A DNA stretch of 45,968 nucleotides from DHVE2 group archaeon (lineage in GTDB: Archaea > Thermoplasmatota > Thermoplasmata > Thermoplasmatales > Aciduliprofundaceae). Location: positions 1-45,968 of the forward strand of contig JALVVV010000024.1 of NCBI GenBank assembly GCA_027023265.1, written 5' to 3'. Below the pieces are notes generated by a model. It worked only from the letters and a program-made list of their open reading frames with translations, ran no database searches and was not told the DNA's origin. Of this stretch, positions 7,596-25,647 are shown one piece after another (positions within the stretch are counted from its first letter, which is position 1; each line of letters starts with the position of its first letter). The position numbers were made by a program, and so were the translations under genes.

Positions 7596-10500
7596 ATTTC
7601 AATCCCACCATGGTCTTATTTTAACTACTTGCATTCACAGGACACAACGGTGCAGACTTAACAGAATTTCAATCCCACCATGGTCTTATTTTAACATGAA
7701 AGATATAAAAATAATAAGGTTTTTGATTTTCTAATTTCAATCCCACCATGGTCTTATTTTAACCAGGGACAATTCCAAGCCCTATATTCACAGACCCAAA
7801 ATTTCAATCCCACCATGGTCTTATTTTAACGATGTAATAAGCGATATCATATATCTAAAAACAGTATCAAAATTTCAATCCCACCATGGTCTTATTTTAA
7901 CTTACGATAACATAGACGAACTAAAAAAACAGTTAATTTCAGATTTCAATCCCACCATGGTCTTATTTTAACTTCAAGAGCAAGAAGAGCTATGAGAAAT
8001 GGCTTCGTATTTCAATCCCACCATGGTCTTATTTTAACTCTGAAATCTTCACCTGCTTCTGCACGCCATTCCACAATTTCAATCCCACCATGGTCTTATT
8101 TTAACACGGGAGTAGAGGGCTCACTTCACTCCCGATTTTTTCCCATTTCAATCCCACCATGGTCTTATTTTAACAAGAACCGCTACCGCTCGACATTACA
8201 GAAGCATGACTTATTTCAATCCCACCATGGTCTTATTTTAACAATCTGAACGTATCCGCATATATGATATTCTATTATGGATTTCAATCCCACCATGGTC
8301 TTATTTTAACGATCTACGCCACACACCCGCACGGAGGCATAGTAATCAAATTTCAATCCCACCATGGTCTTATTTTAACGTGTGATGACTTCCGTGCGGA
8401 CTAAAAAGGGACTGGAGAATTTCAATCCCACCATGGTCTTATTTTAACTTTCTGGGATGAGAACCTCACCGGTCCGGGCAAAATCGATTTCAATCCCACC
8501 ATGGTCTTATTTTAACAAAGTAAAGGAAATAAAAGAATGGATCGCGGCTGATGACATTTCAATCCCACCATGGTCTTATTTTAACTGCCCTTCGAGATCC
8601 GCGGTGACTACGCAGTCGCCGATTTCAATCCCACCATGGTCTTATTTTAACGAGGGATACGGAAATATATACTCATACAGAGAGTTTGATTTCAATCCCA
8701 CCATGGTCTTATTTTAACATCTTCTAACATTTCCTTAACTTTATCGACCAATTTTTTATTTCAATCCCACCATGGTCTTATTTTAACCATATATACATCA
8801 CCATCCTGGTGAAGTTCGTATTTTAATTTCAATCCCACCATGGTCTTATTTTAACTCCACGATAAGAAAATGGAGTAACGGCACTATAAAAACCATTTCA
8901 ATCCCACCATGGTCTTATTTTAACTCCACGATAAGAAAATGGAGTAACGGCACTATAAAAACCATTTCAATCCCACCATGGTCTTATTTTAACCAGCACC
9001 AGAATTTGTGGAGGCCCTCAAAAGGGTAAGAGAATTTCAATCCCACCATGGTCTTATTTTAACCTGTACAGTTGTTTTCCCTTTTCGTCTGTAGACTTCC
9101 TCATTTCAATCCCACCATGGTCTTATTTTAACGACAGATTGGAAAGCTTCCGTATGGATATAGGAAAACAATTTCAATCCCACCATGGTCTTATTTTAAC
9201 ATAAATTCATAGAGGAGCATGGGCTGGCAGAGTTGTAATTTCAATCCCACCATGGTCTTATTTTAACGGTCATCCTCACGAATTCCTTGTTGAAGACATA
9301 ATCCACATTTCAATCCCACCATGGTCTTATTTTAACGGGCGGGATATGGAAATACACTACTCACGAGAAGCGAGATTTCAATCCCACCATGGTCTTATTT
9401 TAACATAAATTCATAGAGGAGCATGGGCTGGCAGAGTTGTAATTTCAATCCCACCATGGTCTTATTTTAACCTCAGGCCACGAGAGTATGATATGCTCCT
9501 TGAGGCAATCATTTCAATCCCACCATGGTCTTATTTTAACTCTTTCCTCTTCCTCTTTCTCCCTCGCCTTCTCATAGATTTCAATCCCACCATGGTCTTA
9601 TTTTAACTGTCTCGACTACATGGGCGTCGAAGTAAGCCTGTGGAGATTTCAATCCCACCATGGTCTTATTTTAACCGTTCACGTCTACAGTTCATAACAA
9701 CGCCACGGTGCTGGCATTTCAATCCCACCATGGTCTTATTTTAACGAAAGATGAATTTTATTCTAACCTTGCAAAAAAAAGAATTTCAATCCCACCATGG
9801 TCTTATTTTAACGGTCATCCTCACGAATTCCTTGTTGAAGACATAATCCACATTTCAATCCCACCATGGTCTTATTTTAACGGGCGGGATATGGAAATAC
9901 ACTACTCACGAGAAGCGAGATTTCAATCCCACCATGGTCTTATTTTAACCCTGCGCCGTGAGTGTACTGATATATTTCCAGCCTAAAATTTCAATCCCAC
10001 CATGGTCTTATTTTAACAAGGTTGTAAAAAATGCGTATATATATAGTGAAAGTTAACAATTTCAATCCCACCATGGTCTTATTTTAACCGATTATTTTTT
10101 TCATTGTTGCACCCCCTGAGCCTGATTTCAATCCCACCATGGTCTTATTTTAACTAAAAGAAAAGTTAACAAAAAAAGAGATAACAGATGATTTCAATCC
10201 CACCATGGTCTTATTTTAACTATATTGCCCAGTCCAGTGTTTCTACATCTACTTTTGCATTTCAATCCCACCATGGTCTTATTTTAACTCCAAGTCTGTG
10301 AGCTCGGAAAACTTCACAAGCACGTACATTTCAATCCCACCATGGTCTTATTTTAACCATAGCATATCTCTGCCTGCTTCTGTACACCACTCCACAATTT
10401 CAATCCCACCATGGTCTTATTTTAACGTGGATGGTGCCCCGAGCTGGTCAATGCTCGCACGCTAATTTCAATCCCACCATGGTCTTATTTTAACTACATC

Positions 10501-11458
10501 ATCTATGTAGTCTTTTGCCATTCTTATATTGAATTTCAATCCCACCATGGTCTTATTTTAACTTTCTCTTCCATAGCAATCACCAATTTAATCTTTCATA
10601 ATTTCAATCCCACCATGGTCTTATTTTAACGAATTATCAAATGCTTGTGGATACAATGATATAGAATAATTTCAATCCCACCATGGTCTTATTTTAACAA
10701 ACTTATCAATTCTCTTTATTTTATTGCGAGTAAAAATTTCAATCCCACCATGGTCTTATTTTAACTTAAGATTAAACCTCATTAATATCACCTCCACGCA
10801 TAGTAATTTCAATCCCACCATGGTCTTATTTTAACGATGATAAACGGCATCATTTGCCATATGGTCTTCGCATTTTCATTTCAATCCCACCATGGTCTTA
10901 TTTTAACACGCCTCAACTATTGCAAAAGTAAATTTTAAGGCAATATTTCAATCCCACCATGGTCTTATTTTAACACGCAGTCGCCGTGGAGAGCATCATC
11001 TCGTGAGGTGATATTTCAATCCCACCATGGTCTTATTTTAACCTGTTATATTCTTGTACCCTACTGCATTTATGGATACCATTTCAATCCCACCATGGTC
11101 TTATTTTAACGATTGGCTCACTTACTCGGGGTATATCTACGCCTGAGTTATTTCAATCCCACCATGGTCTTATTTTAACAGAAAAACATGGAGAAGATAC
11201 ATATATATGTATCATGGCATATTTCAATCCCACCATGGTCTTATTTTAACATGTTTTTCTCCAGTATAATTTTTCTCTTTTTCTTCATTATTTCAATCCC
11301 ACCATGGTCTTATTTTAACCGAAAGAAAATATTCCGTGAAAATGACCCATGGAAATGTAATTTCAATCCCACCATGGTCTTATTTTAACCTTTTTTTGTA
11401 GCAATTTCCACAGTCGCATACTTTCGCAATTTCAATCCCACCATGGTCTTATTTTAAC
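7596..11458 (-). CRISPR. CRISPR array 1: 57 identical 30-bp repeats, 56 spacers
   Basis: I counted 57 copies of a 30-bp repeat with no visible variation, separated by spacers of 36-42 bases. In the transcribed (minus) sense the repeat begins GTTAAAATAAGACC and ends TGGTGGGATTGAAAT. The ATTGAAAT end is the usual 5' handle of archaeal and clostridial type I-B crRNAs, so transcription runs from high to low coordinates and the newest spacers lie near 11458. The repeat holds the 8-bp palindrome ACCATGGT but no good hairpin. Several spacers are duplicated: spacers 19 and 20 are identical, and spacers 24, 25 and 26 recur as 27, 33 and 34 (numbered from the low end). ORFs reading ISIPPWSYFN or FQSHHGLILT here are translated repeats, not genes. 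Confidence 0.98.
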
Positions 11459-11614: not shown

Positions 11615-11878
11615 TCACAAGATATTTCCTGTTTCTACCTTTGATTCACCCATTTCTTCGACTTTTAAGTATTTTCTATCTCTGACCGAATAAAAAATCA
11701 CGAAATCAAGATCTTTGTTAACTATTTCTTTTATTCCTTTTTTCACTCTTTCGTATTCCGCGGGAGTGAGCTCTCCTTCAAACACAGAGTTTTGCTTCCA
11801 CATCATATATTGCCTAAGGAATTTGCGCACGTTGTTCACCCTTTCCACGCCCACATCATAAACGATTATTACATACAT
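11615..11878 (-). CDS. cas2: CRISPR adaptation protein Cas2
   Basis: The 87-residue protein starts MYVIIVYDVGVERVNNVRKFLRQYM, the Cas2 beta-strand with the conserved Asp followed by the first helix. It bridges two Cas1 dimers in the spacer-integration complex. I chose ATG 11878, which starts directly after the cas1 stop, over an upstream in-frame ATG at 11893 because Cas2 proteins begin at this strand. The array leader follows immediately downstream. Confidence 0.95.
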   Translation of the reverse strand: MYVIIVYDVGVERVNNVRKFLRQYMMWKQNSVFEGELTPAEYERVKKGIKEIVNKDLDFVIFYSVRDRKYLKVEEMGESKVETGNIL

Positions 11879-11879
11879 T

Positions 11880-12851
11880 TTACCACCATGCAATTAGAGG
11901 TTTGTATTCCTCCGCACCGATTATGTGTTTGATTATTTTATAGCATTCGATTCTTATCATTCTCTGTATTGAAACTTTCCTGCCCAGTCCCCTATGAGTG
12001 ATGGTGGATTTCAATTTAGCGTTGTACTCCTGTAAGAATTTTCTGCGGCCAGAGTCACTTAATAGAACAGCATTGAGATCATCCCGAAAATCTTTCTCAT
12101 CGAGCATGCCTTTTCTCACCAACTTCAATATTATTCTATCAATAACGATTGGCTTGAAAATTTCTGCAATATCCAAAGAGAGAGAAAATCTGCGTTCAGA
12201 GGGCTCATGTAAAAAAGAAATCTCGGGATAAAGCTGAGTATTGTATATTTCGGATAGCACTGTTGTGTACATAAGTGAATTTCCGAAGCTGATTAGTGAG
12301 TTCATTTTATTATTGGGCGGCTGGCGTACTCGCTTGATCATCCTGTATTCTTCTGGCAGGATGGAATCTACCAAAGCATAATAGGTTTCTCTAATCTTTC
12401 CCTCCACTTCCATTAACTCTTGAACATTTCGAGTTGTTTCTATTTTTGCCCGGTACTCATCGATCTTTCCTCTGTCTATTTTCCACCTGCTCAGATTTCT
12501 TATGATATTCCCGGCAGCCCCATCTATAAATTTTTTTGCTAAATTCATTCTTTTTTTGTTGTCTAAGTAATGCTCTGCCTGCTTCACAACAACCAAACCT
12601 GATACGTACTTCTCTCTGGGATAAAAGGAGGATGTGTAAAATCCATACTTGTTAAAGAAATGCACTGGTATCTTGTTTTTAGCAAAATAGGAAATCACTC
12701 CTGAAGTTAATGTAATCTTGCCGTACGCATATATGGATGAGATTTTGTTAATGGGTAGTAAATGCTTCTCTCCGTCCATATCTATAAAGTAAATTGTGTT
12801 CTCTTTTCTGACCAGCTTGCCATGTTTTGTTATGTAAAAATTTTCTTTCAT
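11880..12851 (-). CDS. cas1: CRISPR integrase Cas1
   Basis: The 323-residue protein is of type I-B style. The N-terminal beta domain (about 1-75) is followed by the helical catalytic domain. The metal ligands are Glu150 in VEGKIRETYYALVD, His215 in ISFLHEPSERRF and Asp227 in SLSLDIAEIFKP. It integrates new spacers next to the leader together with Cas2. It overlaps cas4 by 4 bases upstream and is followed by cas2 with a 1-base gap, so cas4-cas1-cas2 form one translationally coupled adaptation module. Confidence 0.97.
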   Translation of the reverse strand: MKENFYITKHGKLVRKENTIYFIDMDGEKHLLPINKISSIYAYGKITLTSGVISYFAKNKIPVHFFNKYGFYTSSFYPREKYVSGLVVVKQAEHYLDNKKRMNLAKKFIDGAAGNIIRNLSRWKIDRGKIDEYRAKIETTRNVQELMEVEGKIRETYYALVDSILPEEYRMIKRVRQPPNNKMNSLISFGNSLMYTTVLSEIYNTQLYPEISFLHEPSERRFSLSLDIAEIFKPIVIDRIILKLVRKGMLDEKDFRDDLNAVLLSDSGRRKFLQEYNAKLKSTITHRGLGRKVSIQRMIRIECYKIIKHIIGAEEYKPLIAWW

Positions 12852-13438
12852 TCTTCATCTCCTCCAAAACAAAACTCGTAATATGCACATTTTTTGCATA
12901 TCTTCTTTCTTTTAGGATTTGGCATGGGTCCAGAGTTTATACGTTCTATTTCTTGCATTGCTTTTTCAATTTCTTTCTCGTATTCTTCCGTAAGCTCTAT
13001 CTCTTTTCTCTTTCGCATCTTTGGATAATCAATTATTCCCTTCGCCTCTATTCCTCGCCTTTTGAGATAATACAGATAATAAACAACCTGCATTATATGC
13101 GCCTTCTCCATGCTCCTGCTCTTCTTTATCTCGTGCACTTCAATCTCCTCCCCATGGCGAACAAAATCGATGGATATGTCCCCTATATTAACCTCCTTAT
13201 GCCCGGAATATGATGATTCATGGAGAAATCTTCCTAATTCGACATTCTCGTTCCCCCGCTCCATCGTTATGTCGTGGGAGAATAGCCATAGTTTGGTGTG
13301 GCAGATGTAATAGTACGCAATTTTCACCCCTGTTATGTGCATCTCGTGCATTCTTATCTTAATCCATTTGGCCATATAAACCTTTTTCGCTATACCAGTG
13401 ATAACAAATCCTTCGGTGTTAGGATTTCGATATGTCAC
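12848..13438 (-). CDS. cas4: Cas4 exonuclease (adaptation)
   Basis: This 196-residue RecB-like nuclease processes prespacers and helps select PAMs. The N-terminal cluster Cys lies in YYYICHTKLWLFSH. The C-terminal three are in CKKCAYYEFCFG, giving the four Cys for a [4Fe-4S] cluster. The PD-(D/E)xK core is visible as SIDFVRHGEEIEVHEIKKSR. The start is uncertain: GTG 13438 has no clear SD, while ATG 13375 or ATG 13351/13342 would begin closer to the usual ITG motif. The first ~30 residues may not be translated. Confidence 0.93.
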   Translation of the reverse strand: MTYRNPNTEGFVITGIAKKVYMAKWIKIRMHEMHITGVKIAYYYICHTKLWLFSHDITMERGNENVELGRFLHESSYSGHKEVNIGDISIDFVRHGEEIEVHEIKKSRSMEKAHIMQVVYYLYYLKRRGIEAKGIIDYPKMRKRKEIELTEEYEKEIEKAMQEIERINSGPMPNPKRKKICKKCAYYEFCFGGDEE

Positions 13439-13544: not shown

Positions 13545-14819
13545 ATGTATGTATCCATGGATAGGCGAGAACTGGAGATGTATGTCGAGGATAAGTACGA
13601 GATGCTTCGCTCTTTAAACATTTACGAGAGAAATATTGATATCAAAATGACAAAAAATTTTGTGTTGAGTTTAACAGGTCCGCGTAGGGCTGGGAAAACT
13701 TACAATCTTTATAATATAATAAAAGCAAACAATTATGAGAAATCTCTGTATCTGAATTTTGAAGATATTGAACTTGTAGATACAAACCCAAAAGATATTC
13801 TAAACATTGTGAAAAATTATGTTGAAATCTTTGGCAATGAACCGGATTATATACTCCTCGATGAAGTGCAGAATGTCCTGGGGTGGGAGAAGGTGGTTAG
13901 AGAATTACACGAATCTAAAAAATATCACATAGTTGTTACAGGCTCATCCTCCAAACTTCTCTCCAGGGAAATCTCCACTTCTCTGAGGGGGAGAAGCTTA
14001 ACCCATTTTATTATGCCACTTTCATTCACAGAATATCTCAAATTCAAAGATTTTCATATTCCATCTCATTTATCATCCACGCTGGTGAGCAAAATAAAAA
14101 ATCATCTTTCCAGATATTTCATGGGCAGTTTTCCAGATGTGGCACTTGAAGAATCACTCGCTCCAAGATTTTATGAGGATTTTGTAAATCTGGTTATTTT
14201 CAAGGATATTATGGAAAGGTATTCTATTCGCAATTCTTGGTTGATTAAATTCATGTTTAAATCTATGATTTCATCCACATCTAAGGAGTTCTCAATACAC
14301 AAACTATACAACACATTGAAAAGCAGGGGAGTTGATGTGGCTAAAAGGACCCTTTACCAGTATTCTGAGTACTTCAACGATGCTTTTATATTTTTCTTTG
14401 TGAAAAAATATTATCCATCATTGAGAAAAAGAGAACTCTCAATCCCGAAGATATATCCTGTGGATCCCGGCATCGCCCATCATTTTGGAATCCGAGATCG
14501 TGGAAGACTTCTTGAAAATGTTGTGTTTTTAGAACTCATACGCCGCTCTGGATACGAAAATGTATTCTACTGGAAAAATGGAGGCGAGGTAGATTTCATA
14601 GTGGTTAAGAATGATAAACCCGTTGAGGGAATACAGGTGACATTTGAGCTCAACGATGAAAACAGGAGCAGGGAAGTAAAGCCTCTTATAAGTTTCAGCA
14701 AAGCCACCTCCTGCAAAAAACTAAAAATCATAACATGGGATCAACGCAATGACCTCGTGGTGAATAACACAAAAATCTCAGTGGTGCCCCTCTGGGAGTG
14801 GATTATGACTAACCACTGA
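13545..14819 (+). CDS. AAA-type ATPase with DUF4143 C-terminal domain
   Basis: At 424 residues this matches the archaeal predicted ATPase family AAA_14/DUF4143. The Walker A motif is GPRRAGKT (about residues 45-52), Walker B is YILLDEVQN, and sensor 1 is VVTGSSSKLLS. The C-terminal part has a nuclease-like GGEVDFIVVKN...GIQVTFE strand pattern reminiscent of PD-(D/E)xK folds. Family members are common, often horizontally mobile, and of unknown role. It lies on the opposite strand between cas3 and cas4, splitting interference from adaptation genes. ATG 13557 (fifth codon) is an alternative start. I see no reason to call it a Cas protein beyond its location. Confidence 0.85.
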   Translation: MYVSMDRRELEMYVEDKYEMLRSLNIYERNIDIKMTKNFVLSLTGPRRAGKTYNLYNIIKANNYEKSLYLNFEDIELVDTNPKDILNIVKNYVEIFGNEPDYILLDEVQNVLGWEKVVRELHESKKYHIVVTGSSSKLLSREISTSLRGRSLTHFIMPLSFTEYLKFKDFHIPSHLSSTLVSKIKNHLSRYFMGSFPDVALEESLAPRFYEDFVNLVIFKDIMERYSIRNSWLIKFMFKSMISSTSKEFSIHKLYNTLKSRGVDVAKRTLYQYSEYFNDAFIFFFVKKYYPSLRKRELSIPKIYPVDPGIAHHFGIRDRGRLLENVVFLELIRRSGYENVFYWKNGGEVDFIVVKNDKPVEGIQVTFELNDENRSREVKPLISFSKATSCKKLKIITWDQRNDLVVNNTKISVVPLWEWIMTNH

Positions 14820-15005: not shown

Positions 15006-17423
15006 CTAAATAATGAATTTAAAATCATTCTTTTTATCATAATCAAAACCAATATCGTAAGTATACGGGCAGTTACACACCCAATAGATTTTCTCTTTTC
15101 TTCCTCTCTTTTGAATATATTTATCAAAACAATATCCTCCCTCCTGTAAATCTTTTAATAGATATGTAATTGGAATTTTAGCCATGTTTTCAACTTTGAA
15201 AGCACTATCAACCTTTTTTTCAAGAATATTTTTTGGAATTACATCTATATGCTGTATTTTTTCATCTCTTACTTTAAACTTTAATCCTTCCTCACTCCCT
15301 GTAGAAATAACCCTCCAATGATCTCCAAAGATTGTGAACTTCCGGAAAAATTCTTCAAACAAACTTTTAGAAAGTTCGTAATCTGAATAAATTTCATCAC
15401 AAAATTTCTTGATATCAATATAAGAAATTGGGACGTCCTTCAAAGGGTTATTTTCTAAATAAATCTGGGTTTTTTCCAAAATATCTTTAGGATACGGATA
15501 AAAATTTTCTGGAGCGAATAAGTTTAGTAAGTATTCATAGGAATTATACCATTTCTCTCCTGCCCGGTTTAATCTTCCTGCACGTTGACCCAAAGCATCG
15601 GGTGGTGCTATTTCTGAAAACATTATATCGCAGGATATATCCAAAGAAATCTCAATCACCTGTGTTGCCACTAATATAAACGGCTTTTTTTGCATCCTAT
15701 TGATAATTTCTTTCTCTTTCTCTGCTCTATCTTTGTAAGTAAATTGTGAATGATACAACATAATATTAGGTTCATTTGTTGCATCCTTTAATCTACCCCT
15801 TAATGTGAGATAAAATTTCTTTGCTCTTTCTACAGTATTGAGAATTACAAATTGAGTAAGCCCTTTTTTATAGTTTTCTATAATATTGGTGAAAACAATA
15901 CTATCAAAAATTGTTGTTGAATATAACCTTATTTTGAAAGGTTTGAAAGCGACACCCTCATCATCTCTAATAAACTCGTAATATTTTAAGCGAGAAAGCA
16001 TAAATTCTGGGAATGTTCCGGACATAAGCAGGTGAGGTATATCCATTTTTCTTAGCGTGGAAAAGAGGGTGATTAAATGCTCTAGCGTTAATTTCTCATA
16101 GTAATGTACCTCATCAAAGATGATAACTGCGTTTTGTAAATTTCCACAAGCGAAATCTGCTTGAGAGAAACCTTTCACGAAAGAGTAAATAAGATGATCT
16201 ATAGTAGTCACTGTTACTGGTTTGAAGAATATGCTTCCTTTAAAATTCTCACTTTTAATATCCTCTGATGTTAGTTCTTCATCCATCTCCTCATCTATTT
16301 TTTCTTTTTCTTCTTTAAGTTTAATGAAAGATCTTCCATGATATATACCTACATTTTTTGAACCAAATATCTTTTTCAAACGCTCATACATCATATTACT
16401 AGTGGTTTGTGTCGGTAAGGCAAAGACGATTTTATTTCTATGATACTTTTTGAGCATTTCTAACGCCCAAATCAAGGCACCTTCGGTTTTGCCTCGTCCA
16501 CAGGGTGCAAACAGAGCTACATACTTACTGCTATTTGAAAGCCTTTTTTGAAATGAATAGGGTTCTTTATTCTTTAAAACTACTTTGAAGGGAGAATTTA
16601 CTTTAAGCCGTAGCACAAATTTCTTAGGATCTTCTATTACATCATCAAGTATTCTACTATTTCCCATGTATTTCTTAACATATTCAGTAAAATTGGCACT
16701 GGAATAATCATCACAGAGTTTTAAGATTGAGAACATAAAGGTATAGATAGATTTTATTTTTTTCCACTCTCTTTTTTCGTCTATTTGAGTGTTAATATAA
16801 ACAAAGAAACTATTCCTTTGTGTCTCTATCCATCTAAGAATTTTGATTTTATTCCTTTCATCTAATATGGGCAATTCTACAGGTTTTTTCTCTAAATTAA
16901 ACCATGTATTAAACCCTAAATGAAGGTATGTTCTATGAACATCCTCTATAAACTTAAGAATCTCTTCCTTAAGAAATGTAGGGGGTTCAAAGAGGTTTTT
17001 ATCTGAATATAGTGAATCCCATAATTGAGTGTGGTGACCCAACACAGCAGCAACTTCTAATGGGATTCCTTCAATAACATATTCATCTAATATTTGCCAA
17101 AATAGTAAGGCTCCATACAACGCATGAGGGTATCTTTGAGATTTTCTATTTGTTTTAATATTTTCCTGAAATTCTTTGGTGAGTTTTCCAATGTCGTGGT
17201 AATATATAACCAAATAAAGATTTCTTAAAAATTTTTCATTATTTAGTGCCCACCTATTACAAAATTGCTGAATAACATCATAGTTCTGGATTATATATTC
17301 CTTCAAAATTTTGAGAGCATCTGTAGTGTGACCATCCAGTGTTTGAAAATATTTTTTTTCGTCATCTGATACATATAATTTTCCGATGGGTTTACCTTTC
17401 AAGCATTTCACCTTTGACCGCAT
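15006..17423 (-). CDS. cas3: Cas3 HD nuclease-helicase
   Basis: This 805-residue fused HD-helicase degrades target DNA after Cascade binding. The HD nuclease residues are visible as GHTTDALK (residue 32), YYHDIGK (75-80), the HALYGA His100 and LGHHTQLW (129-134). The helicase part has Walker A APCGRGKT (307-313), DEVH (437-440), SGT (468-470) and QRAGRLNR (motif VI). The annotated ATG overlaps the end of the upstream gene by 32 bases. A TTG at 17402 preceded by AAAGGTGAAA looks like a better SD-led start and would drop seven residues. It is the last gene of the interference operon. Confidence 0.96.
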   Translation of the reverse strand: MRSKVKCLKGKPIGKLYVSDDEKKYFQTLDGHTTDALKILKEYIIQNYDVIQQFCNRWALNNEKFLRNLYLVIYYHDIGKLTKEFQENIKTNRKSQRYPHALYGALLFWQILDEYVIEGIPLEVAAVLGHHTQLWDSLYSDKNLFEPPTFLKEEILKFIEDVHRTYLHLGFNTWFNLEKKPVELPILDERNKIKILRWIETQRNSFFVYINTQIDEKREWKKIKSIYTFMFSILKLCDDYSSANFTEYVKKYMGNSRILDDVIEDPKKFVLRLKVNSPFKVVLKNKEPYSFQKRLSNSSKYVALFAPCGRGKTEGALIWALEMLKKYHRNKIVFALPTQTTSNMMYERLKKIFGSKNVGIYHGRSFIKLKEEKEKIDEEMDEELTSEDIKSENFKGSIFFKPVTVTTIDHLIYSFVKGFSQADFACGNLQNAVIIFDEVHYYEKLTLEHLITLFSTLRKMDIPHLLMSGTFPEFMLSRLKYYEFIRDDEGVAFKPFKIRLYSTTIFDSIVFTNIIENYKKGLTQFVILNTVERAKKFYLTLRGRLKDATNEPNIMLYHSQFTYKDRAEKEKEIINRMQKKPFILVATQVIEISLDISCDIMFSEIAPPDALGQRAGRLNRAGEKWYNSYEYLLNLFAPENFYPYPKDILEKTQIYLENNPLKDVPISYIDIKKFCDEIYSDYELSKSLFEEFFRKFTIFGDHWRVISTGSEEGLKFKVRDEKIQHIDVIPKNILEKKVDSAFKVENMAKIPITYLLKDLQEGGYCFDKYIQKRGRKEKIYWVCNCPYTYDIGFDYDKKNDFKFII

Positions 17424-18144
17424 CTATTTTTTTTAGGAAATCTAAGCAGTTCTCTAATATTTTAAATTGATATTCAGTATAATACCAATTCTCATTTGGA
17501 GGTGGGGGATAATCCAAATTCGAGACTTCTTTCAGGTAAAGTTGTGCTCTTTTTACCTGTTCATATTTATCTGAATCATGGGCTACCATATTCCTAACAT
17601 CTTTTAACCCTCTATAAAAATCAACTTCCAACTCCCTAGAAATCCCTTTAACTTTATCAAGAAACAAACCATTGATTCCCTCTAACACTACTTTATGAAG
17701 ATCTACGATAAAGGCATTAAAAATGGATTCCTCCATACATAATTTTCCCTGCCATTTCATGGATATTTGGAGTGTTGTAGAAGTAGTGCGAAACAGTGGC
17801 TCTCTTTGTCTTCCTCGAAAATATTCATCTATTTTACATCTCTGATTAATGATATCTTTCCACAACTTGGTCTGACTCTTTTCATAAGCTGGTAGAAGTA
17901 CTTCAAGGGCTTTTTCGGGAGAGATTTCAAAACCTTCCATAATCCACAAGTCCTCTTTTATTTTATTAAACCCCAAATCTACCAGAATCTCACTATGGGA
18001 ATCTTCTATGTTCCCACAATATAAATAAGTATATCCTTCCCCACCAGATTCTATTTTGCCATAATCATAAATCTCCATATTCAATAAATGCTTAAGATGG
18101 CCTTCTGTTAGTTCCTCAATATTGGTTGGAATTATGTTACCCAC
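17392..18144 (-). CDS. uncharacterised Cas-operon protein with HEPN-like RxxxxH motif
   Basis: I do not recognise this 250-residue protein as any named Cas family. Its second half is predicted helical and contains GLKDVRNMVAHDSDKYEQVKRA: R184-N-M-V-A-H189 fits the Rx4-6H motif that ends HEPN ribonuclease domains, and the preceding helix (about 135-180) has the usual spacing. The N-terminal ~110 residues look alpha/beta and unrelated. GTG 18144 overlaps cas5 by 13 bases and has GGAGGAGAG as SD. Its 3' end overlaps cas3, so the protein is co-translated between the two. Inference: a HEPN RNase or RNA-binding accessory of this I-B system. A loose small-subunit role cannot be excluded. Confidence 0.7.
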   Translation of the reverse strand: MGNIIPTNIEELTEGHLKHLLNMEIYDYGKIESGGEGYTYLYCGNIEDSHSEILVDLGFNKIKEDLWIMEGFEISPEKALEVLLPAYEKSQTKLWKDIINQRCKIDEYFRGRQREPLFRTTSTTLQISMKWQGKLCMEESIFNAFIVDLHKVVLEGINGLFLDKVKGISRELEVDFYRGLKDVRNMVAHDSDKYEQVKRAQLYLKEVSNLDYPPPPNENWYYTEYQFKILENCLDFLKKIDAVKGEMLER

Positions 18145-18782
18145 ACTTTCTCTCCTCCATCAAACTCAACCAAGTTTAGTTTATCTTTTATAGGTTCTTT
18201 TGTAGGTATAGAGACTATTTTATACTCTAGTTCAATATTTTTACCTCGTTTATTGAATTTATAGGGGATCCTTTCCACTATGCAGCCAGCGTGAAGTCCT
18301 TCTACTATGCTCCATGTTTCGTCAGACTGAACATCCTTTACTTTAGAAGGCTTTTCTACGATTAGATCTATTAAATCGTCTGAGATACCTAAATATAAAG
18401 GTCTATAGGGCATTAGAAATGCAGAATGTATTTTTTCTATGATTTCTTTATTCCCTACTAAAAATATTTGATATTGTGGCTTTGCTATAAACTCTCTGAA
18501 CATAGGCGCCGATGGAAAACCCCTTGTGTATCTTTTTCCTGATCCTTTCAGTTTTAAAATTTTTGCTAATTCTCTGTTTTTATTAGACTTTACTAGTTTT
18601 ATGCCAATCTTGAACCAATCTTGTATTTCAAAATAATCTCGCGGAAGTCCCAACGCGTTAGCAATAAGCCCTCTGATAGTTGTGTATGGTGGAATACTGT
18701 AACTCAAAATAATAGAAGTGGTTGTGGGGTGGCGAAAACTGGTAAAATAGGGCGCATCCAATGTTACTTTTAGTCCCCACAT
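18132..18782 (-). CDS. cas5: Cascade subunit Cas5
   Basis: The 216-residue RAMP protein binds the 5' handle of the crRNA in the type I-B Cascade. The N-terminal strand VTLDAPYFTSFRHP and the block PPYTTIRGLIANALGLP are diagnostic of Cas5. The rest (FPSAPMFREFIAKPQYQIFLVG...PYRPLYLGISDD) follows the Cas5 pattern of type I-B. It starts 6 bases after the cas7 stop, with a weak SD, and overlaps the downstream HEPN-like gene by 13 bases. Confidence 0.93.
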   Translation of the reverse strand: MWGLKVTLDAPYFTSFRHPTTTSIILSYSIPPYTTIRGLIANALGLPRDYFEIQDWFKIGIKLVKSNKNRELAKILKLKGSGKRYTRGFPSAPMFREFIAKPQYQIFLVGNKEIIEKIHSAFLMPYRPLYLGISDDLIDLIVEKPSKVKDVQSDETWSIVEGLHAGCIVERIPYKFNKRGKNIELEYKIVSIPTKEPIKDKLNLVEFDGGEKVWVT

Positions 18783-18788
18783 TGGAGA

Positions 18789-19703
18789 TCACTCTATTTT
18801 TACTTTCTTTAGATACTCTATGGCATTTTCAAGTGCATTATTAGGTGTTGTTACTTCGATACCTTTGCTCTTCAAGGTAGCTTTTACTTTCTCTTCGTTC
18901 TCTATAGTCCCTGATAATATACCTCCAAAAATTTTACTGCTATATTCTCCTACATCATCTAAGATGTTTTCTAATCTTTGGATATCAATACTTTTTCCAT
19001 TTAACTTAAATGCTTTCTGTAATCTATGAGAGTATTTGTTCTGGAAACTTATTAAGATCACATCAGGAGTAAAGTCTGTGAGCAACCTAGCCTGTTTTGA
19101 ATAATCAGATAGGTATCTTAACGCTTCCAATACTTTGACGATTCTATTTTTTCTCTCATTTGCATCAATGTAGTGTTCGATTTCTACAGTTCTATTTTCT
19201 GTTATTTTTTCTTCTCCTCCGACTCTGAGAGCATCTATAGCAATGCCACATTTATAGAGATTTACGCCGATTTCGACATTTACTATATCCCCTTCCATCT
19301 CACCCTTTTCCATCCTATGTTTTCTTGTTAAAAAGTCTACTACAGAATTATCTTCAAGGGGGAATAATCCGATAGCTGGGGACACCTTCACGGGTGAAAC
19401 TCTAGTAACCGCCCCTTTGCCTTTTATTGTTGTCATAAATCCAAATAGATCACATCCAATACATCTTTTTATATCGCCGCATGTTTCTCCTTTGTCGTTT
19501 GGTACGCACATGTATTCATTAGAATTCAGATTCCTTCTTATTGATTCCCTCAGATAGTGTCTCATAGCTTGGCCGGAGACATATGGGTATTCCACGCCGT
19601 CTACCTTGTACTTTTTCAGGTCTATAAAATTCGCTTCGCCCTCACCTGCGTTCAGGTTTGTCAAATCAGTTCGGGATAACCACACAATTCCTATAGCTTT
19701 CAT
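18789..19703 (-). CDS. cas7: Cascade backbone Cas7 (Cst2/DevR family)
   Basis: The 304-residue protein forms the helical crRNA-binding backbone. The motif [19 protein letters not shown] (about residues 39-57) is the conserved core of the Cst2/DevR branch of Cas7. A cysteine cluster C66-C75-C81-C84 (ending CIGCDLFGF) could bind zinc in the thumb insertion. ATG 19703 has a perfect SD GGAGGTGAT. The Cst2 type together with the CxxC-CxxC Cas8 upstream places the system in the I-B Tneap/Cst group. Confidence 0.93.
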
Positions 19704-19705
19704 AT

Positions 19706-21247
19706 TTAATCACCTCCATTTTTTTGTTTTTGTATTTTGCTTAGTGAATAGTACATCGCTGCATAAATAACAATTAAATCTCTGATTTCTTTCCATGCAT
19801 CTTTGTTTGTTTCTACTAATTCTTTTGTTAGTACTATGACTTCATCTAATGATGAAGGTCTAATTTTTCCTAATTGTTTATCTTTTAAGTTCGGTAATTT
19901 CCTTGCAATTTCTCTCATAACACTCCAAAACTCCTCAATGGTTCTAGTTTTATCCATTTTGTATAGCAGAGACACATTACTCTCGCATATTTTTGAGATT
20001 ATATTTCCAACACTTCTTATACTCTCTAATTTTTCTTTTGGTACGCCCATTTTTTTCCACCTCCATGTATATACAAGATCCTCAAAATATTTTTGGGTAT
20101 ATCTTCGGTCAAAAAAAGATACATAACCGCCTTTTCTTGGTAGCAGATAATAGACAAAGGACTTGAAATCATTATACAAAAACAACTGTGAAAGTTTTTC
20201 TTGTATACCACGTGTGATCTCCCAATCAATGGTTTTTTTCTGTGAAGAATAAAAAAAGATTTTTTTAAACAAATCGGTATATACTCTTTCCACTAAACCT
20301 TCTTCTTTGAGGTCTTTAATGATTTGGAGAATTCCTTCATTGATATCTATTGAATCAATCCTTATGTTTTTAACTGCACCAAATGGAATCTTTATAACTG
20401 CCCATTTCTTGGCAATATTTACATTAGTGGCATTTTCTATGAATTTTTCATAAAAACAGAGCAAAGTAGAATACTCACCAGGTGTATTTTCAACCTCCTC
20501 AGCATCTATATGTACTCTTATATTAGAATATCTGGAATCCTTATTAATCAGTCCTGCATATATCAGATAATTTTTAAAATTATGTAAGTCTTTCAAATTA
20601 TCAAAGATGGGCATAAAAAGAAGAGAAAAATCTCCGGGGAAAGTTCTATATATAACACCTTCATCTGTCCACTCTAAAATACCCAATAGATAACATAAGG
20701 GACACACATTATCATAATAGTCTTTCAAAGATAGTTTGATGCCGTCTTTATATGATCTAACTCCACTGAGAGACGAAATTTTAGTTACCATAGGATAACT
20801 TGCTTGCTGAAGATTCTTAATTTTATATTCATAAGTTCTGCCACAGAGAATGCATTGATTTTTTTCTTTTCCTAATAACGATTTCATTATATAAGCAATA
20901 ATTTCTTTGGTTTTTTCAGGCTTATATATGTTCTCTTTAAACGCAACTTTGCCACCAATCTTTTTATCTTCTTGGATCATTATATAATCTTTCTTTATTT
21001 CTTTTTTAGTTCCTGTTTTTTTGTCTTCTTCTATGACTAACATATTCTCTCTTTTTACTAAAATTTTTAGTGTTAGTTCGTTAATGAATTCCTGAATATC
21101 AGTAATATTTATCTTAAGGGAATCTTTGTGAATCGTTACTTCGCAAGAGGTCATACCTCTTAATATTCGATAGAAATTCTCAATGGCATTGTCCATCCAT
21201 ACGTCGTTATATAGTGAAATATCAAAATTTGTTTGAGAATTTGTCAA
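19706..21247 (-). CDS. cas8b: Cascade large subunit Cas8 (Cst1, CxxC-CxxC type), main part
   Basis: The 513-residue frame carries the two zinc-like pairs CILCG (C132, C135) and CPLCY (C182, C185) that define the Cst1 family. The large subunit recognises the PAM. The frame starts at TTG 21247 with GGGGGTGA as SD. Its N-terminus lacks the NWFxDAG-type opening I expect for this family, and that opening lies in a separate 44-codon ORF directly upstream in another frame (21244-21378). One added G in the G5 run at 21256-21260 would fuse the two. The real product may therefore be a longer fusion (about 557 residues), or two coupled products. Confidence 0.88.
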
Positions 21248-24303: not shown

Positions 24304-25395
24304 GAAGTCATACTACTAAGTTCTCCTGAAACAGATGTGTGCCCAGGGAATGTTGTTGAGGGCACTGAATTTCCATACTACTAAGTTCTCCTGAAACGTT
24401 GGAGATTTTACAAAATATGAGGCAATACCGTTTCCATTTCCATACTACTAAGTTCTCCTGAAACATCTCCCTTTTTATTATAGCAGAGCAGGACCGGCAT
24501 AATTTCCATACTACTAAGTTCTCCTGAAACAAAGTCTCCATAAACAGAAAATCAAGGAATGAAATTGATTTCCATACTACTAAGTTCTCCTGAAACTGCT
24601 GCTTTTCTCCCTGCTAAGTATGCTGCATATTCATTTCCATACTACTAAGTTCTCCTGAAACAATCTTAGGGCATTCTGGAATTCCCTATGTATCTTCTTA
24701 TTTCCATACTACTAAGTTCTCCTGAAACTGTCTTTATGCCCTTTTACCCAAGCATTGCCTTCATCATTTCCATACTACTAAGTTCTCCTGAAACTATGTA
24801 AAACGCTTCTGTTCTTCCCCCTCGGTATGAATATTTCCATACTACTAAGTTCTCCTGAAACTTCCATTTCTTATTCGCTTGCTCAATTAAAATCTCAATT
24901 TCCATACTACTAAGTTCTCCTGAAACTAGAATTCTGGGATTGGCTGTACGACTATGCAGTCAACGCTATTTCCATACTACTAAGTTCTCCTGAAACATAT
25001 CCAGTTGAATTATATAATGGAAGTGTTAGTTGGATTTCCATACTACTAAGTTCTCCTGAAACTAAAATTACCATTTCGCTGATTGCCGTCATGCTACTTC
25101 GCCAATTTCCATACTACTAAGTTCTCCTGAAACCATTACTCCATTTTCTTATTGTGGATGGGGTAACTGATTTCCATACTACTAAGTTCTCCTGAAACCT
25201 ATGAGGGCCGGCCGCTCTACGAGCGCCTACAGGTTAATTTCCATACTACTAAGTTCTCCTGAAACACATCTCCACAATATAGGTATATGCACGAAGGTAT
25301 TATTTCCATACTACTAAGTTCTCCTGAAACGAACTCTCCAAATTCAGGCGTGGATATGCCTTTTGCATTTCCATACTACTAAGTTCTCCTGAAAC
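24304..25395 (-). CRISPR. CRISPR array 2: 17 repeats of 29 bp, unrelated to array 1
   Basis: Sixteen identical 29-bp repeats plus one degenerate copy (24304-24332) flank 16 spacers of 36-42 bases. In the inferred transcribed (minus) sense the repeat begins GTTTCAGGAGAACTT and ends AGTAGTATGGAAAT. The degenerate copy is at the low end and has lost the GGAAAT end, as expected for the trailer, so the leader is beyond 25395. The repeat shares only its GAAAT end with array 1, and no cas genes adjoin it. It may be served by a second Cas set elsewhere or by Cas6 from array 1. Spacer 13 (25134-25169) matches the target of array 1 spacers 19 and 20. Confidence 0.97.
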
Positions 25396-25487
25396 CCGAT
25401 TTACAGAATAGGTATATGACTTATCCTTAAAAAAATTTTGCACTTGAAATAATGAGTCACCCTCCAATTCTGCAATTCATTTATAAA
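25396..25487 (-). promoter_or_regulatory. leader of CRISPR array 2 with TATA box
   Basis: This AT-rich stretch lies next to the youngest repeat. TTTATAAA at 25480-25487 is the same element found in the leader of array 1 and lies about 85 bases from the first transcribed repeat. I see no other similarity between the leaders by eye. From 25488 to 25647 I see only a TATA candidate (TTTTTTAAACG, about 25608-25618) for the aIF2-beta gene. Confidence 0.55.
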
Positions 25488-25647
25488 CCCTTACCGACTT
25501 TTTTGCCCGTGGGTGCATGAAGGCGATTTAATTTAGCATTCCTTTTATTTGAGCAATTATCATTATGCGTTTTTCTATTTTTGTAGTTTGCAGTCTGCGA
25601 TAAAAAGTTTTTTAAACGTTCACACAATCATCGCTTGGTGTTAAAAA

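Follow-up and report, generated by a model that had tools for sequence, protein, structure and literature searches.

Two type I-B CRISPR-Cas systems

The window, by which we mean the whole stretch of 45,968 nucleotides that was analysed, is contig C24 of a 1.64-Mb assembly in 59 contigs. It contains two CRISPR arrays with unrelated repeats and several cas genes, and a third array lies on contig C23.

6747–7466, minus strand: cas6
7596–11458, probably minus strand: CRISPR array 1, 57 repeats (ATTTCAATCCCACCATGGTCTTATTTTAAC as written on the plus strand)
11615–13438, minus strand: cas2, cas1 and cas4
15006–21247, minus strand: cas3, an unassigned ORF, cas5, cas7 and cas8b (subtype I-B)
24304–25395, minus strand: CRISPR array 2, one degenerate and 16 perfect repeats (ATTTCCATACTACTAAGTTCTCCTGAAAC), leader at the right
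25396–25498, minus strand: array 2 leader, 103 bp identical to the array 3 leader on contig C23
C23, 12437–13261, minus strand: CRISPR array 3, same repeat as array 2

PADLOC identified Cas8b (E = 1e-174), Cas7b, Cas5, Cas3b, Cas6, Cas4, Cas1 and Cas2 in the array 1 operon. This system is of type I-B, with cas8b accompanied by cas7, cas5, cas3, cas6 and cas4-cas1-cas2. Contig C23 carries an operon encoding Cas6b, Cas8b (E = 2e-56), Cas7b, Cas5, Cas3b, Cas4 and Cas1 about 4.5 kb from array 3, and a putative cas2-like ORF (L219, 776–1048) completes this operon. The system of arrays 2 and 3 is also of type I-B, as full effector and adaptation genes lie near an array with the same repeat, and the common repeat and leader suggest that array 2 is paired with the operon on contig C23. 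For each of the two repeat families there is a separate, complete I-B cas operon, and the earlier view that two CRISPR types are present has to be replaced by one of two systems of the same subtype.

Two further ORFs lie among the cas genes of the window. In the I-B operon, a 250-aa ORF (17392–18144, minus strand) overlaps cas3 as well as cas5 and contains an RNMVAH (Rx4H) motif; its only profile match was a weak one to Apea-like HEPN (E 0.04), and no homologue was found in 120 relatives. The plus strand between cas4 and cas3 encodes, opposite to the cas genes, an AAA_14/DUF4143 ATPase (13545–14819) that matches the PADLOC candidate system PDC-S01.

Arrays 2 and 3 have an identical 103-bp leader to their right and nothing in common to their left. 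Because the shared leader lies to the right only, we conclude that both arrays are read on the minus strand with the newest spacers at the right. Array 1 is probably transcribed on the minus strand as well, since the reversed repeat ends in ...ATTGAAAT with an ATTGAAA 3' motif and cas2 and cas1 lie to the right of the array. The predicted crRNA 5' handles are ATTGAAAT and ATGGAAAT. Within array 1, spacer blocks are repeated between 9237 and 9949 (spacers 24/27 and 25–26/33–34), which is evidence of internal recombination.

Spacers of arrays 1 and 2 match one another

Three spacers are involved in the match that we followed up.

8856–8894, minus strand: array 1 spacer 19, member of the matched pair
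8925–8963, minus strand: array 1 spacer 20, exact tandem copy of spacer 19
25134–25169, minus strand: matched spacer of array 2, fourth from the leader and number 12 among the perfect repeats

The preliminary description called spacers 19 and 20 identical, and they are identical 39-mers; however, the second is a local tandem duplication within array 1, so that the two represent one event rather than two and count once. The array 2 spacer had been numbered 13, which holds when the degenerate first repeat (24304–24332) is counted and otherwise becomes 12. Alignment of spacer 19/20 with the reverse complement of the array 2 spacer reproduced exactly the 25 aligned bases and two mismatches that had been described, at the same coordinates. 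Positions 6 (G/A) and 24 (C/T) distinguish the two versions, TCCACGATAAGAAAATGGAGTAACG and TCCACAATAAGAAAATGGAGTAATG, and both changes are transitions. When the 79 unique spacers of the genome were all compared with one another, without gaps and on both strands, the pair scored 20 points, compared to 10–15 in 20 shuffled sets; it was the second-best match and lay above every shuffle. When a 25-base window was used instead, 23 of 25 bases matched, compared to 17–20 in 25 shuffled sets (best 20/25).

Copying does occur inside array 1, as seen from the duplicates 19/20, 24/27 and 25–26/33–34, but chance similarity, or a copy shifted between the arrays by recombination, is ruled out by a score far above the shuffles and by the geometry of the pair. 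The alleles differ, the crRNAs are on opposite strands and the end points differ; therefore the spacers were not copied from each other. Thus, the description of two arrays with unrelated repeats that sampled homologous, slightly diverged DNA stands.

In the crRNA sense, spacer 19 reads GGTTTTTATAGTGCCGTTACTCCATTTTCTTATCGTGGA and the array 2 spacer reads CAGTTACCCCATCCACAATAAGAAAATGGAGTAATG. The two crRNAs would face each other on opposite strands and together span a 50-bp segment (CAGTTACCCCATCCACRATAAGAAAATGGAGTAAYGGCACTATAAAAACC), an arrangement that depends on the predicted orientation of array 1. The overlap covers crRNA positions 15–39 of spacer 19 and 12–36 of the array 2 spacer, such that the seeds of both crRNAs lie outside of it. 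The mismatches fall at positions 34 and 16 of spacer 19 and at positions 17 and 35 of the array 2 spacer. As these are outside the seeds, the shared part alone would not block cross-recognition.

Other related spacers in the genome

Spacers of this genome draw on the same or related targets in four cases, the matched pair among them. The spacers of the other three cases are as follows.

24927–24967, minus strand: array 2 spacer 9, whose right 36 bases equal array 3 spacer 4 (C23, 12662–12697; L020, 12662–12697)
8039–8075, minus strand: array 1 spacer 7, diverged homologue of array 1 spacer 41
10358–10396, minus strand: array 1 spacer 41, partner of spacer 7
8586–8621, minus strand: array 1 spacer 15, overlapping array 1 spacer 50 (10975–11012)

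The strongest case is the 36-base spacer sequence that is identical in array 2 and in array 3 on the other contig. All of spacer 4 of array 3 lies within spacer 9 of array 2 (41 bases); the two share the leader-side end, and spacer 9 has five additional leader-distal bases. The reading is EFWDWLYDYAVNA. Archaeal acquisition is reported to use an imprecise ruler, such that spacer length varies away from the PAM end (PMC4390879). Because PAM-end-anchored variable length has been reported in archaea, this pair looks like a double acquisition, which suggests two acquisitions from one protospacer. Spacers 7 and 41 of array 1 share their leader-side end and align from there over 24 bases with three mismatches; their readings are VEWRAEAGEDFR and VEWCTEAGRDML, respectively. 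Spacers 15 and 50 of array 1 have an end-to-start overlap of exactly 12 bases; when joined, they read PFEIRGDYAVAVESIIS followed by a stop.

Searches for the invader

A single spacer of the genome has an identifiable target.

7973–8008, minus strand: array 1 spacer 6, which reads FKSKKSYEKWLR

Viral elements of two relatives, G012 and G004, encode a small basic protein to which the peptide FKSKKSYEKWLR is homologous. Spacer 6 aligned over 32 of 36 bases (91%) with an integrase-bearing viral element of G012, a member of the same family, and also matched a viral fragment of G004, a genome of the same genus (target loci L100, 1990–2202, and L174, about 984–1151). Spacer 6 matches a viral gene of close relatives, which shows that viruses of this lineage are indeed sampled by the arrays. 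Further viruses with the spacer 6 target protein were distant relatives only and had no additional spacer matches. The target of the matched pair was not found on the G012 and G004 viral elements.

It had been proposed that both spacers be searched against virus and plasmid sequences, and this search (IMG/VR and phage and plasmid collections) returned no protospacer. The 25-mer covering both alleles gave no genuine protospacer in IMG/VR, nor did it give one among 200 relatives when up to three mismatches were allowed. All spacers were also compared with phage and plasmid collections, in which no genuine protospacer was identified, and with 121 relatives, among which spacer 6 alone gave a convincing match. 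Peptide searches had the same outcome: the degenerate peptides TIRKWSNGT and STIRKWSNG in IMG/VR and STIRKWSNG in 85,000 genomes yielded no genuine protospacer, FWDWLYDYAVN had no genuine match in IMG/VR, and the peptides had none in the phage and plasmid collections. The matches to TIRKWSNGT and STIRKWSNG in IMG/VR were rejected because they lay in the wrong frame, in very small ORFs, or in phage proteins that were either unrelated or XRE-like. A six-frame scan for self-targets, covering the first 20 kb of each contig and short contigs in full, revealed none that was convincing.

The preliminary description took the pair as evidence of one recurring invader. The part of this claim that two arrays sampled homologous DNA is borne out, whereas the protospacer was not found in these searches and the argument reaches as far as an element family. 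The invader was likely a virus or mobile element; that both spacers came from the same element, and that it was a virus, is what we infer. The pair records repeated contact of this heat-loving, Thermoplasmata-related archaeon, probably a member of the Aciduliprofundaceae (order Thermoplasmatales, broadly defined), with an element family that is absent from the collections searched, and it supplies about 50 bp of the invader for recruiting related sequences from metagenomes.

Candidate target gene

The peptides previously given for the two spacers were correct, and VTPSTIRKWSNGTIKT resembles a recognition helix, making a helix-turn-helix (HTH) reading of the target plausible. We consider it possible, though short of probable, that the recognition helix of a viral or plasmid-borne regulator of the XRE/Cro-CI type is encoded in the shared segment. 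Two residues separate W and G in the spacer peptide, and its S-T-I-x-K-W-x-N-G spacing fits the ST[IV]xx[WI]xxG pattern of XRE recognition helices, as judged by comparison with L229, L188 and the XRE proteins of the host; archaeal XRE proteins of the same family read STIAKIENG. Unbiased motif scans of 85,000 genomes and IMG/VR yielded four long ORFs with the motif. One, a regulator of the Cro/CI type, exceeded the Pfam HTH_3 cut-off (STISKWWNGEIVPGP) and another had a weaker HTH_3 match (TTISKWRNGQRK), while the remaining two were an ORF with no Pfam hit and an unrelated enzyme-like ORF. Against this reading, only 16 residues are available, and the padded 16-residue peptide, which is short for profile filters, returned no Pfam hit at E ≤ 10 and nothing from PHROGs or the PDB. 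Moreover, its ungapped similarity to IS607 helices exceeds that to the host's own XRE proteins.

The gene might lie on the other strand, where it would encode a membrane-like peptide (VFIVPLLHFLIVDGVT), and the HTH reading would then be accidental. Spacer 19 has three open frames. Both differences were described as synonymous, and they are silent in the HTH frame; however, the antisense frame with matching wobble positions leaves both silent too, so they do not point to the strand of the gene. Their use as proof of the frame was overstated, because 30% of random transition pairs in the 25-mer are silent in some open frame. The silent changes mildly support coding DNA. Only 5% of such pairs are silent in the HTH frame compared to 18% in the antisense frame, and therefore the observed pair favours the HTH frame by about 3.7 to 1. 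Host codon usage did not select a frame and gave the sense frame no advantage (log-likelihood 0.8–1.4 lower). The HTH-like motif is coherent, whereas no long viral ORF containing LLHFLIVDG was found and the antisense peptide had no genuine match in IMG/VR. Its single match in the PDB, to a TNF leader, was attributed to chance. On balance an antisense gene seems unlikely, and we lean towards the HTH sense frame as the gene frame.

That the segment belongs to an IS607-type serine recombinase with a MerR-like HTH, such that the recurring target is a transposon, is doubtful and somewhat less probable still. Thermoplasmata IS607 domains, which match Pfam MerR/HTH_17, contain VNPFTLRRWDNEG and IDPTTLRKWDKEG, and these resemble the left half of VTPSTIRKWSN (BLOSUM62 scores of 38–41). 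However, W and G are three residues apart in all MerR-type domains that we examined, with three residues lying between them, and the N-terminal MerR-like HTH of IS607 TnpA is marked by W-x-x-x-G where the spacer peptide has W-x-x-G. The IS607 hits were also biased, because the query that drew in these loci bore an added IS607-like tail; the bare peptide had no homologue in 150 relatives. In the only serine recombinase found in the genome (contig C19) the HTH is at the other end and the motif is absent. The assignment to IS607 or MerR proteins made earlier therefore holds for a plausible HTH with an IS607-like left half, while the W-to-G spacing fits XRE/Cro-CI instead. Of these two candidates, an XRE-kind regulator appears no less likely than an IS607 transposase. 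Contig C19 itself (L119; 3,245 bp) encodes the serine recombinase and a P-loop protein, and may be a small mobile element from this host.

Probable acquisition by two systems and comparison with known systems

The most likely explanation for the matched pair, in which we have high confidence, is that the two I-B systems independently took overlapping protospacers from one element family. Two adaptation events, one per system, would have occurred in the same archaeon, drawing on a homologous region in two slightly diverged copies of one mobile-DNA family, probably viral. The PAMs would sit at opposite ends of the 50-bp segment, and each crRNA would bring its own Cascade-Cas3 to the site. The pair is real and represents ordinary CRISPR behaviour, arising by an ordinary mechanism. 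Cross-system priming, in which recognition by the crRNA of one I-B system spurred acquisition by the other from the opposite strand of the same site, is very improbable, and no datum here requires it. If it did occur, two systems with different repeats would train each other on one locus, which, once shown, would be relevant to cooperation between type I systems that reside in one cell.

The candidate target shares the P-[ST]-T-[IL]-R-[KR]-W segment with the HTH of IS607 TnpA and MerR proteins but has one residue fewer between W and G, as read from the roughly 50 bp of the target at hand. With XRE/Cro-CI domains it shares the ST-I-x-K-W-x-N-G spacing, a likeness that rests on 16 residues and for which the profile family search gave no hit. 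As with the overlapping protospacers of Sulfolobales (PMC4390879), several spacers come from one region, and one end is kept while the length varies away from it (array 2 spacer 9 with array 3 spacer 4, and array 1 spacers 7 and 41). The Sulfolobales study followed de novo acquisition from a known plasmid, whereas the present analysis reads the arrays of subtype I-B systems with no known target. Finally, like other archaea with multiple type I systems and separate arrays, this organism has two complete cas operons that are associated with separate repeat families; what differs here is that both are I-B, that their repeats are unrelated, and that their arrays hold overlapping spacers of one locus.
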